In this document: piece after piece, positions 10,385-13,217 of the stretch
Numbering within the stretch: the first letter of the stretch is position 1
Layout: each line of letters begins with the position of its first letter
Assembly (NCBI GenBank): GCA_024742935.1
Contig: JANSXN010000019.1
Location: 1 to 34,955, forward strand
Length of the DNA stretch: 34,955 nt
DNA from: Flavobacteriaceae bacterium
GTDB taxonomy: Bacteria; Bacteroidota; Bacteroidia; Flavobacteriales; Flavobacteriaceae
Direction of reading: 5' to 3'
Translations under genes and position numbers: made by a program
Notes under the pieces: generated by a model
The model's database searches: none
Told to the model about the DNA's origin: nothing
What the model saw: only the letters and a program-made list of their open reading frames with translations

Positions 10385-11041
10385 ATGGGCTTAACAAAGG
10401 AACAAATCGCACAACGCATTGCAAAAGAAGTTAAAGACGGTTACTATGTTAATCTAGGTATAGGCATCCCTACGCTGGTAGCAAATTTTGTGCGTGATGA
10501 CATTGATGTTGAATTTCAAAGTGAAAACGGCGTTTTGGGAATGGGGCCCTTTCCATTTGAAGGAGAAGAAGATCCAGATTTAATCAATGCCGGAAAACAA
10601 ACTATCACAACATTGCCCGGGGCTTCTTTTTTTGATTCTGCAATGAGTTTCTCTATGATTCGTGGTAAACATGTCGATTTGACCATACTCGGTGCAATGG
10701 AGGTGGATGAAAACGGCGACATTGCCAACTGGAAAATACCCGGTAAAATGGTGAAAGGAATGGGAGGCGCTATGGATCTTGTGGCTTCCGCCGAAAATAT
10801 TATCGTTGCGATGATGCATACCAATAGAGCGGGTGAATCCAAATTATTAAAAAAATGCTCACTACCACTTACCGGAGTAAATTGTGTAAAGAAAGTTGTC
10901 ACAGACCTTGCAGTTCTCGAAATAACAGAAGAAGGATTTAAACTGCTTGAACGCGCACCCGGAGTTACAGTAGAAGAAATTCAAAAGGCAACAGAAGGCA
11001 CACTTTTAATTGAGGGTAATGTGCCTGAAATGAAATTTTAA
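10385..11041 (+). CDS. scoB: 3-oxoacid CoA-transferase subunit B
   Basis: This 218-residue beta subunit carries the SENGVLGMGPFP motif, whose glutamate (Glu47) forms the covalent glutamyl-CoA intermediate. The N-terminal GIGIPT loop is also intact. It pairs with the preceding alpha subunit (2-base gap), and a strong terminator follows 27 bases after its stop. Both halves of the enzyme are complete, so the heterodimer should be active. Confidence 0.93.
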   Translation: MGLTKEQIAQRIAKEVKDGYYVNLGIGIPTLVANFVRDDIDVEFQSENGVLGMGPFPFEGEEDPDLINAGKQTITTLPGASFFDSAMSFSMIRGKHVDLTILGAMEVDENGDIANWKIPGKMVKGMGGAMDLVASAENIIVAMMHTNRAGESKLLKKCSLPLTGVNCVKKVVTDLAVLEITEEGFKLLERAPGVTVEEIQKATEGTLLIEGNVPEMKF

Positions 11042-11097: not shown

Positions 11098-11364
11098 GTG
11101 TATAAAAGTCATTTTGTAGGTAAAAAATCAGATAAATGTTAAAATATAATGCATTTCATCGAATAAATATGTTTTTAATCGTCAATATGTGATTTTTGTT
11201 TGCATATTAGCAGTCCCAAAATCAACCAGCTTACTTAACCTAAGCTATGTGAGTTAGAAAAGTAAAAAAACTAAAGCATTGAAAAGATGGCAATAGTCAA
11301 AAAACATTTTCAAGTATTGCACAAAAAAGTTAAACCTACTTTAATTTTAGTTAATAGTGTGCTA

Positions 11365-11481
11365 TACATTTCTAAAAAAGTTTTTTTATTGATGTAACTA
11401 AAAATAAACCCCGAATCTGTTGACATTTTCAGATTTAAAGGTCAATCCCGCTCTTTGTGAGGTTAGAGCGGGATTTTTTTT
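11365..11481 (+). ncRNA. Candidate structured small RNA: H-type pseudoknot followed by terminator
   Basis: The 484 bases between convergent scoB and the ABC gene hold no ORF on the plus strand, but do hold a compact RNA-like structure. Stem 1 is AATCTG (11414-11419) with CAGATT (11430-11435). The loop begins TTGAC (11420-11424), which can pair with GTCAA (11441-11445) just 3' of stem 1, the geometry of an H-type pseudoknot. A terminator follows: AATCCCGCTCT (11444-11454) with AGAGCGGGATT (11465-11475) and a T-run. A weak -7-like box, TACATTTC, at 11365-11372 would start an RNA of about 100 bases. Rfam families such as Flavo-1 or 6S-Flavo are possible homes that I cannot test. The rest of 11098-11364 shows nothing I can name. 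Confidence 0.5.
11444..11481 (+). terminator. Strong intrinsic terminator of the candidate small RNA
   Basis: A perfect 11-bp stem (AATCCCGCTCT / AGAGCGGGATT) with a 10-base loop is followed by an unbroken T-run. No plus-strand gene lies between this and the earlier scoB terminator at 11068-11097, so it probably ends a separate transcript. Confidence 0.85.
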
Positions 11482-11501
11482 ATTTCCGCGTAGGCGGAAA
11501 T
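11482..11501. repeat. REP-like palindrome, copy 1
   Basis: ATTTCCGC (11482-11489), GTAG and GCGGAAAT (11494-11501) form a perfect 8-bp hairpin with a 4-base loop. A second copy with the same CCGCGTAGGCGG core lies at 28524-28545 inside hemC. The two differ in both arms in a compensated way. Such elements are common dispersed repeats in Flavobacteria and other bacteria. Confidence 0.75.
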
Positions 11502-11525: not shown

Positions 11526-13217
11526 TTATCTCCCCTTAGGAATTGCCTCAATCAACTTTTTAGTATAATCTTTCAAAGGATTGGCATAAATTTCATCTGC
11601 CTCACCAATTTCCTCAATTTTTCCTGCGTTCATTACCATAAGCTGATCTGCCATGAATTTTACAACTGCCAGGTCGTGAGATATAAAAAGGTAGCTGAAC
11701 CCATATTTATCTTTCAGCTCATTTAAAAGATTTAAAACCTGAGCCTGGACAGAAATATCTAGTGCAGAAACAGATTCATCACAGATTATTAATTTTGGTT
11801 CTACAGCTATGGTTCTGGCAATACCCACCCTTTGCCTTTGACCGCCTGAAAGTTGATGAGGATATCGATGATAAAAATCTTCACTTAAGCCAACCTGTTC
11901 TAAAAGTTGAATTACTTTTTCCTTCCTCATTTTGTCACTGTAATGCAACTTATGAACTATCATTGGCTCTAAAATTGCTTCACCCACAAGTACTCGTTGA
12001 TTGAGAGAGGAGTAAGGGTCTTGGAAGATAATCTGGATTTCTTTACGGTATTTTTTAAATTCCCTTTCGCTTAAAGCAGAAATGTTTTTCCCTTTGTAAT
12101 AAATGCTTCCGGCAGTAGCTTTATCTAGCTGGAGAATCGCTTTTCCCAAAGTTGATTTTCCACACCCAGATTCTCCTACAAGGCCTAGGGTTTCTCCTTC
12201 ATAAAGCGCAAAGCTTACATCATCAACAGCCTTAGTGACTTTTTGACTTCTGAAGAGACCCACCGAAGTATAATATTCTTTTTTGAGATTTTGAACTTTT
12301 AGTAATGGTTGGGCATTATATATTTTCTTGTGTTTTGCCGCCCTTTGAGTTTCCGAAACGAATGTTGAATTAACTATGTTTTTTAAAAAATCTTGAATCG
12401 TTGATAGCCTTTCTTTTCTTTTATTTAAACTGGGTCTGGCATGTATCAAAGCCTTAGTGTAAGAGTGTTTTGGAGCACAAAATATTTCTTTTACGGTTCC
12501 TTGTTCAACAATTTCACCCTTAAACATCACCAGAATTCTATTGGCTATTTCAGAAACCAAAGTCAAGTCGTGAGATATAAATAAAATGCTCATACCTGTT
12601 TCTTTTTGTAACTCCTTTAAAAGTAAAATAATTTCCTTTTGAACGGTTACATCAAGCGCTGTTGTGGGTTCATCGGCGATTAGAATTTTTGGCTTGCACG
12701 CAATAGCCATAGAAATCATAACCCGCTGCATTTGGCCACCGCTTATTTGATGTGGGTATTTGCTATATACATCTTTAGGATTAGGAAGCTTAACTTTTTC
12801 AAAAAGCAAAAGAGTTTCTTTTTTTGCTGCTTTGCGTGAAACAGATTTGTGTTGAACCAGTATTTCTGCAACTTGATGACCACAAGGCATCGAAGGGTTT
12901 AAAGCACTCATGGGCTCCTGAAAAATCATAGAAATGGAATTTCCCCTAATTTTTTGAAGGTCTTTTTCACTTAGATCTAGAAGTGACAACCCTTCAAATA
13001 ATATTTCTCCATTTTTTATTTTAGAAATATTATTTGGAAGTAAACCCATTAAAGATAAGGTTGTTACCGACTTTCCGGAACCAGACTCTCCTACAATTCC
13101 TAAAATTTCATTTTTGTCCAGACTAAAAGAAACAGATTTCACAACCTCATTTTCCACTTTTCCTGAAAAAAAGGAGATGGATAAATCTTTTATGGATAAA
13201 AGAGAGTTGTTATACAT
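11526..13217 (-). CDS. ABC transporter ATPase with two nucleotide-binding domains (OppD-OppF/DppD-DppF type)
   Basis: Two complete ATPase domains are fused in 563 residues. The first has Walker A GESGSGKS at residues 43-50, signature SGGQMQR and Walker B KILIADEPTTALD. The second has Walker A GESGCGKS near 347-354, LSGGQRQR and KLIICDESVSALD. Each domain ends with an oligopeptide-type C-terminal part. Such fused ATPases power peptide, nickel or glutathione import permeases. No permease or binding-protein gene is adjacent, so the substrate is unknown and the partners must lie elsewhere. The ATG at 13215-13217 is used. It converges with the small-RNA region and lies divergent to the protease at 13431. 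Confidence 0.92.
   Translation of the reverse strand: MYNNSLLSIKDLSISFFSGKVENEVVKSVSFSLDKNEILGIVGESGSGKSVTTLSLMGLLPNNISKIKNGEILFEGLSLLDLSEKDLQKIRGNSISMIFQEPMSALNPSMPCGHQVAEILVQHKSVSRKAAKKETLLLFEKVKLPNPKDVYSKYPHQISGGQMQRVMISMAIACKPKILIADEPTTALDVTVQKEIILLLKELQKETGMSILFISHDLTLVSEIANRILVMFKGEIVEQGTVKEIFCAPKHSYTKALIHARPSLNKRKERLSTIQDFLKNIVNSTFVSETQRAAKHKKIYNAQPLLKVQNLKKEYYTSVGLFRSQKVTKAVDDVSFALYEGETLGLVGESGCGKSTLGKAILQLDKATAGSIYYKGKNISALSEREFKKYRKEIQIIFQDPYSSLNQRVLVGEAILEPMIVHKLHYSDKMRKEKVIQLLEQVGLSEDFYHRYPHQLSGGQRQRVGIARTIAVEPKLIICDESVSALDISVQAQVLNLLNELKDKYGFSYLFISHDLAVVKFMADQLMVMNAGKIEEIGEADEIYANPLKDYTKKLIEAIPKGR

Follow-up and report, generated by a model that had tools for sequence, protein, structure and literature searches.

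RNAIII is a single transcript that contains the small coding ORF of delta-haemolysin together with an RNA part that pairs with other mRNA. The locus described here likewise combines a short coding ORF with an RNA portion that seemingly pairs with another mRNA, but its main seed lies in a terminator loop, a tiny lipoprotein is the predicted target, the ORF has been lost in some genomes, and the activity is a predicted one. SgrS is another dual-function RNA, while s-SodF, CpxQ and OppZ are derived from mRNA 3′ UTRs, with s-SodF pairing with the 5′ region of the sodN mRNA (PMC9438474). The latter three resemble the present element in being regulators from the 3′ end of an mRNA, which share its terminator and have one main target; in contrast, the parent ORF here has just 26–36 codons, and the release of a 3′ fragment is hypothetical. 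Within the Bacteroidota, GibS of Bacteroides thetaiotaomicron is intergenic and uses a single-stranded 5′ seed to pair with translation initiation regions (PMC7366714). Pairing of the sRNA with the translation initiation region of its target is a common feature (predicted in our case), whereas the seeds proposed for the present RNA are hairpin loops, located downstream of an ORF. Rfp18 of Flavobacterium psychrophilum, compared here by its description, is similarly a conserved, structured sRNA of the Flavobacteriaceae with predicted trans targets (PMC9723704). Among the titles and abstract openings listed by searches of open PMC papers, none describes the RNA or either of the two small proteins, which does not prove absence from the literature.

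The element lies in a 34,955-nucleotide stretch of DNA from a Flavobacteriaceae genome (GCA_024742935.1, contig JANSXN010000019.1), which is referred to as the window. The main features are listed in the table. From comparisons among relatives, the element is probably the 3′ end of a small-protein transcript and would act in trans on a lipoprotein mRNA, with repression the likelier outcome.

Features of the locus in the window (all on the forward strand).
Feature	Position	Strand	Details and evidence
Promoter-like block	11137–11181	+	TGTTAAA, then direct repeat TGCATTTCATCGAAT / TATGTTTTTAATCG; upstream-region alignment, family scan
CATATTAGCAGTCCC, −7-box-like, with predicted start at ~11215	11203–11217	+	Conserved in relatives; start inferred from the TAnnTTTG rule
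Small ORF, 36 codons, MAIVKKHFQVLHKKVKPTLILVNSVLYISKKVFLLM	11287–11397	+	Homologue in 73/83 loci; pN/pS 0.38; profile matches 168/397 genomes
Conserved C-run 5′ of hairpin 1	11409–11412	+	Alignment A3 of relatives
Hairpin 1	11413–11436	+	Arms 11413–11419 / 11430–11436, loop 11420–11429; 0/500 shuffles and 0/5000 swaps as good, n = 63
Candidate second seed TTGACATTTTCA, window's genus	11420–11431	+	Complements TGAAAATGTCAA at the target's start codon; 12–13 bp, 5/5 genus genomes
Terminator	11444–11481	+	Stem 11444–11454 / 11465–11475, loop 11455–11464, T-run 11474–11481; fold and conservation in relatives
Predicted main seed TTTGTGAGGTTAG	11454–11466	+	Terminator loop plus three stem-top bases; target complement in 38/40 RNA genomes

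The original prediction described the region 11365–11481 as an orphan H-type pseudoknot joined to a terminator between convergent genes. The surroundings are as proposed: the element is flanked by a scoB-like ORF (10385–11041, forward strand) and an ABC ATPase ORF (11526–13217, reverse strand), with nothing downstream on its own strand. The terminator is real and conserved in relatives. The proposed first stem, AATCTG/CAGATT, is also present, extended by an outer G.U pair (GAATCTG, 11413–11419; CAGATTT, 11430–11436), and the relatives back it strongly. In 63 distinct sequences at least 5 bp can form in all but one (62/63), and no shuffle of the 3′ side (0/500) or swapped pairing (0/5000) was as good. 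The 5′ arm is usually [AG]AATCT, while its partner occurs in several registers (ATCTG/CAGAT, GAATC/GATTC, GAATCTA/TAGATTC, ATTTGT/ACAAAT). The fold of the 81-nt element (−25.3 kcal/mol, z = −3.86) exceeds chance, since none of 200 shuffles was as good; the first 43 nt alone fold unremarkably (z = −1.52, 17/200 shuffles as good).

Searches with BLAST (11365–11490) found the element in five genomes of the genus, at 92–100% identity, and in one of a sister genus (73%), with a second, more divergent copy (80%) in two of the genus genomes; the remaining matches were weak. These second copies (L038, G001:C52; L039, G002:C76) are degenerate: they have no ORF or promoter block, the loop is altered and the terminator stem broken. 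The pattern CTTYGTGAGGTTAGARCGGG, with at most two mismatches, matched 40 genomes in a sample of 397 from the Flavobacteriaceae, and 37 of the 40 were judged real; G122, G375 and G244 were taken as chance (G244 without its sequence), and a second match in G309 was dropped. Scanning the genomes of named species returned 82 stretches, mainly from the Flavobacteriaceae (among the genera Aequorivita, Ulvibacter, Altibacter, Gilvibacter, Patiriisocius, Aureisphaera and Planktosalinus), a Prevotella match (L116) being left out as chance. In one Aequorivita sp. MAG (L107), small ORF and RNA element occur twice, at 2075 and 2922, 847 bases apart. The motif CTTYGTGAGGTTAG is present in 81 of 83 distinct loci, which were chosen partly by that motif. 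The invariance of the loop is thus partly built in, because the pattern scans select for it; G231, found through its target as described below, is the single loop seen without that filter. Structure counts exclude the two degenerate copies, the tests of stem 1 and of the pseudoknot exclude L105, where the C-run could not be parsed, and the pseudoknot test also leaves out two mis-parsed rows.

Rfam includes families named Flavo-1 and 6S-Flavo. For the window and nine relatives no Rfam family reached the curators' gathering threshold. Matches below it, to PyrR (the best, at 26.9 against 54 bits), Hrs1 and ncr1575, were taken as chance matches to the terminator. Our own covariance model, R1, captured the terminator stem only and was left unused for searches.

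The letters of the proposed pseudoknot are there as well. TTGAC begins the loop (11420–11424), GTCAA follows stem 1 (11441–11445), and GTCAA shares its last two bases with the beginning of the terminator stem (11444 onwards). The resulting second helix has 5 bp in the five genus genomes, and one sister lineage (L040/L060) has a counterpart, CTAC/GTAG. Over 65 relatives, however, the complementarity between loop and tail is no better than that of swapped pairs (1326/5000 as good), so that the relatives support stem 1 and not the pseudoknot, which is rejected as a conserved fold; its competition with the terminator is consequently not conserved either. The alternative pairing of ACC (11408–11410) with GGT (11440–11442) is possible by its letters, and as a nested extension of the stem it is borderline in relatives (236/5000 swaps as good). 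Since the loop of the window's genus perfectly complements the start region of the proposed target in 5/5 genomes (see below), it is more likely, on this complementarity, a second seed for the target mRNA than a pseudoknot strand. That the element is an orphan pseudoknot RNA switching with its terminator is now extremely improbable: the relatives speak against the fold, an ORF sits upstream, and the second seed explains the loop sequence equally well.

A coding ORF and a promoter-like block, both conserved, immediately precede the element, which is therefore no orphan; positions 11365–11397 of the region first delimited are in fact the 3′ end of this ORF, and the window shows no terminator between this ORF and the element. 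A homologous ORF precedes the element in 73 of the 83 distinct loci, mostly with 26–36 codons and a C-terminus like NVLYVAKKVFLLM. Two of the other ten loci are cut too short to judge and eight are without the ORF, two of the eight being the degenerate copies. Comparative evidence shows the ORF to be coding, with a pN/pS of 0.38 (56 non-redundant ORFs, phylogeny ignored). The window's protein has 36 residues and is basic and hydrophobic; it would resemble the toxins of type I toxin–antitoxin systems only in size and in its hydrophobic C-terminus. A protein profile built from short and long types of the family matched 168/397 Flavobacteriaceae genomes (110/237 genera), nearly always at a single locus per genome, and an order-level search, with genomes drawn mainly from the same family, matched 6/196. 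In the 29 profile loci that were read (L209 is absent from this reading), the terminator loop accompanies all 13 short types and none of the 16 long types. No Pfam or NCBIfam model matched 32 short and four long members at its cut-off; the best matches below it, NF038244 (0.036) and DUF3511 (0.16), each to one member, are both far from the cut-off.

The original reading as a stand-alone RNA does not hold in the window, where the ORF lies upstream. It may apply at five loci (L055, L056, L098, L111 and L131), which keep the upstream block and the RNA without the ORF, so that the RNA could stand alone there; in L098 and L131 the −7-like part is harder to make out. Both the lipoprotein and its site are retained in G193, the genome of L056.

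Complementarity to the terminator loop points to one target. When one mismatch at most was allowed, CTAACCTCACAAA matched 28 sites across the five genus genomes, including five in the RNA itself, against 35 for the reversed control; the count is therefore uninformative, and only position and orthology single out the lipoprotein site. In 5/5 genus genomes this site, TTAACCTCACAAA, precedes by 10 nt the ATG of a single orthologous lipoprotein (MKMSKAMLFVALFFTGLFVSCTPESIDSNEQQIDVSNVQLPRQG in the window's genome; the G001 copy is cut by a contig end). In the family, TAACCTCACRAA with an ATG at most 25 nt after it occurs in 115/397 genomes, mostly scattered. Among the matches that were fetched it precedes the target lipoprotein in 22 genomes, namely 21 of the 37 RNA genomes and G231, where the RNA was then located; its terminator stem is altered there but its loop, TTTGTGAGGTTA, is identical. 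A lipoprotein profile was then used on 80 hand-picked genomes: the 16 RNA genomes still to be accounted for, G231, and 63 that lack the RNA. Fourteen of the 16 gave strong matches (E = 2.7e-14 or better), and AACCTCACAAA is at the same place in 14/14; the two without a clear target are G318 (weak match, 8e-4; 76% complete) and G369 (no match; 85% complete). Overall, the RNA is known from 40 genomes (37 by motif, G002 and G004 by BLAST, and G231), and 38 of them have the target site, with a complementarity of 11–13 nt (10 in Aequorivita). The site was itself the search key for 24 of these 38, so that the unbiased evidence comes from the 14 located through the protein.

The lipoprotein has 44–46 residues across genomes (44 in the window's genome), and tsaE and a 175-residue membrane protein flank it in 36/36 loci tested. 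Its C-terminal glycine is constant, often within QNG or RQG, and this C-terminus recalls a signal peptide. Further sites of the form [AT]TAACCTCACAAA occur just before start codons in single genomes, at L247 and L262 (both G003) and at L283 (G182); the genes concerned encode a surface protein of VGIGTT type and an unknown protein, and one is ftsZ-like.

At most targets the site begins a few bases after a TAGGTTTG-like box, and the ATG follows 9–13 nt after the site. According to PMC9723704, the flavobacterial TAnnTTTG box spans −12 to −5; this rule puts the mRNA start at AUUAACC, and the seed would therefore pair with the 5′ end of the mRNA. As the terminator loop has 10 nt, the full 13-nt pairing would require opening of the stem top. 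In 5/5 genus genomes the loop of hairpin 1, TTGACATTTTCA, in addition perfectly complements TGAAAATGTCAA, a stretch of the same gene that begins at the start codon and reaches codon 4 or 5. Among 5000 shuffled leaders 12 Watson–Crick pairs arose in 5, or in 24 with G.U allowed. This second seed was noticed post hoc, in a co-fold, and counts as about one case, since the five genomes are close kin; outside the genus, complementarity of hairpin 1 to the target shows no excess (1941/5000), while Altibacter-like genomes have TTTCATGAT against ATTATGAAA. In the standard co-fold the hairpin-1 helix forms and the terminator loop stays unpaired (net −7.7 kcal/mol), with a program that cannot show loop–loop contacts. 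The two helices are collinear and antiparallel in their order, as one complex needs.

The site is absent from the controls examined. Among the 63 genomes without the RNA, no match to the lipoprotein profile was better than 3.3e-7. Five weak matches (L331, L332, L333, L335 and L339) are syntenic small exported proteins, as they adjoin both tsaE and the 175-residue membrane protein; four of the five are without the lipoprotein cysteine. The site is missing from all five of these genes, whose duplex energies range from −6.1 to −12.0 kcal/mol, and likewise from 13 of 13 paralogous lipoproteins in RNA-bearing genomes. The duplex between loop and leader averages −16.6 kcal/mol for the targets (38 loci, −21.6 to −14.4), compared with −9.1 for the paralogues (13, −12.0 to −6.2) and −8.2 for shuffled target leaders. 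Thirty-eight genomes with RNA and site against five with neither give p ~1e-6, in a table that ignores phylogeny; the co-occurrence is not independent, because both are confined to one clade. At the level of sequence comparison it is shown that stem 1 and the terminator are conserved, and that the complementary site recurs at the same place of the same target. The paralogous lipoprotein (MKKLMFILAVLALAASCTPESL..QQIDKDKYEVPPNG) adjoins a relative of the 175-residue membrane protein in 13/13 loci (L345–L357), and lipoprotein and membrane protein therefore look like a duplicated pair.

No compensatory changes between seed and site were found, loop and site both being nearly invariant. The Aequorivita loop, TTCGTGAGG, has changed from TTTG to TTCG against unchanged sites (CCTCACAAA), with about 10 contiguous pairs left, and the TTAACC/AAACC variation of the site has no mirror in the loop, which is why the pairing spans 11 to 13 nt. 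The absence of compensatory change is the weak point of the trans-pairing reading; such change would be the proof, though a trans-acting RNA need not show it.

The arrangement suggests a transcript of ~265 nt (about 11215–11481), in which the small-protein ORF would come first and a trans-acting RNA module second, the latter consisting of the C-run, hairpin 1 and the terminator with the main seed in its loop. Provided that ORF and element are transcribed in common, the RNA is probably dual-function, combining an ORF with a riboregulator. The active form may be the whole mRNA or a processed 3′ fragment. The terminator loop (11454–11466) would bind the predicted 5′ end of the lipoprotein mRNA, UUAACCUCACAAA, and the hairpin-1 loop of this genus (11420–11431) could additionally bind the start-codon region, UGAAAAUGUCAA. 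Together, the two helices would cover the landing site of the ribosome and repress translation. Pairing in the cell, processing and repression are what we infer from this geometry; repression is likely rather than activation, because the start region of the lipoprotein mRNA would be covered.

The same pairing could have the opposite effect, the RNA covering the 5′ end of the lipoprotein mRNA and thereby protecting or activating it. A seed that matches the predicted very 5′ end would suit such a role, but the second seed found in this genus would cover the very start codon, and we consider protection or activation unlikely. It is quite unlikely that the element works in cis only, as the terminator and stabilizing 3′ UTR of the small-protein mRNA or by folding back on its own leader, with the lipoprotein match a coincidence of one clade. 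Site and RNA are indeed limited to one clade, and the Aequorivita-type loop matches its own leader, TTAACCTCAT, over 10 bp (0–3/100 shuffles as good), so that feedback on the small-protein gene is possible there. Elsewhere, however, the own-leader match is 5–8 bp and mostly not above shuffles, the loop is intact at the five ORF-less loci, and the target site is longer and conserved in 38/40 genomes.

A very improbable explanation is that the leader is conserved for another reason, such as a promoter start or the binding of ribosome or protein, and that the RNA loop mimics it and titrates the same factor. The position of the site a few bases after the TAGGTTTG box and the invariance of both partners are compatible with this, yet the RNA holds the complement of the site, not a copy, and both the paralogues and the syntenic genes in RNA-less genomes do without the site. 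Trans-pairing with the lipoprotein mRNA, probably repressive, is the reading that we prefer and consider likely.

Riboregulation in the Flavobacteriaceae is little charted. Here the RNA, the target and the exact paired bases can be named, and natural controls exist in target genes without RNA or site and in RNAs without ORF, which makes the question directly testable. If the trans-pairing reading is true, the terminator doubles as the seed of the regulator. Two small-protein families are also revealed, that of the small ORF having no Pfam/NCBIfam model in spite of its presence in 110/237 sampled genera. A wider picture, speculative and in our view unlikely, links a membrane-active small protein, a riboregulator from the terminator loop of the same locus and the tiny exported lipoprotein that it would control. 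Together with the near-single-copy promoter, these three would make up a surface or peptide-signalling circuit so far undescribed in marine Flavobacteriaceae; one clade would have added the pairing module to an older small-protein gene, which the module would in places have outlived.

The conserved upstream parts are ordered across relatives as TGTTAAA, TGCATTTCATCGAAT, ATGnnTTTnATCG and CATATTAGCAGTCCC, and the upstream block may be an activator-dependent promoter, on which a regulator would act. A scan of the family with the block found it in 64/397 genomes, at one site each except for two in the window's genome; the reversed control matched 9 genomes. Of 30 block loci that were read, 11 have the 3′ loop, 16 precede a longer relative of the small protein (MNIATNLPEQPTNDESKFKETLKENLQFLKSLVYLTKKIFML type, 41–44 residues) and in most cases have a 5′ UTR hairpin, AGATTT-CCCC-AAATCT, and three precede other genes. 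A leader motif, AACCTAC, was dropped as an explanation of the loop, as L178, L179 and L199 carry it without the loop. In the long-type loci (L175, L200 and others) CCCC-AAATCT lies within the 5′ UTR hairpin, ~50 nt before the ATG, whereas in the window's clade the motif is 3′ of the ORF; AAATCTACC recurs within the coding start as well. The promoter-like repeat with a TTAGnAGTCCC-type start is also found before other exported proteins, at L169 (1504–1800, G000:C111), L177, L197 and L340; among the products are a secreted protein, a CAP-like lipoprotein and, in the genome of the window itself, a surface protein of VGIGTT type. Its occurrence before several genes for exported proteins suggests a small regulon. 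Upstream of the block, L174 has an inverted repeat, CGATGAAATG..CATTTCATCG, which in L176 reads CGACAAAATG..CATTTTGTCG, as if both halves had changed together.
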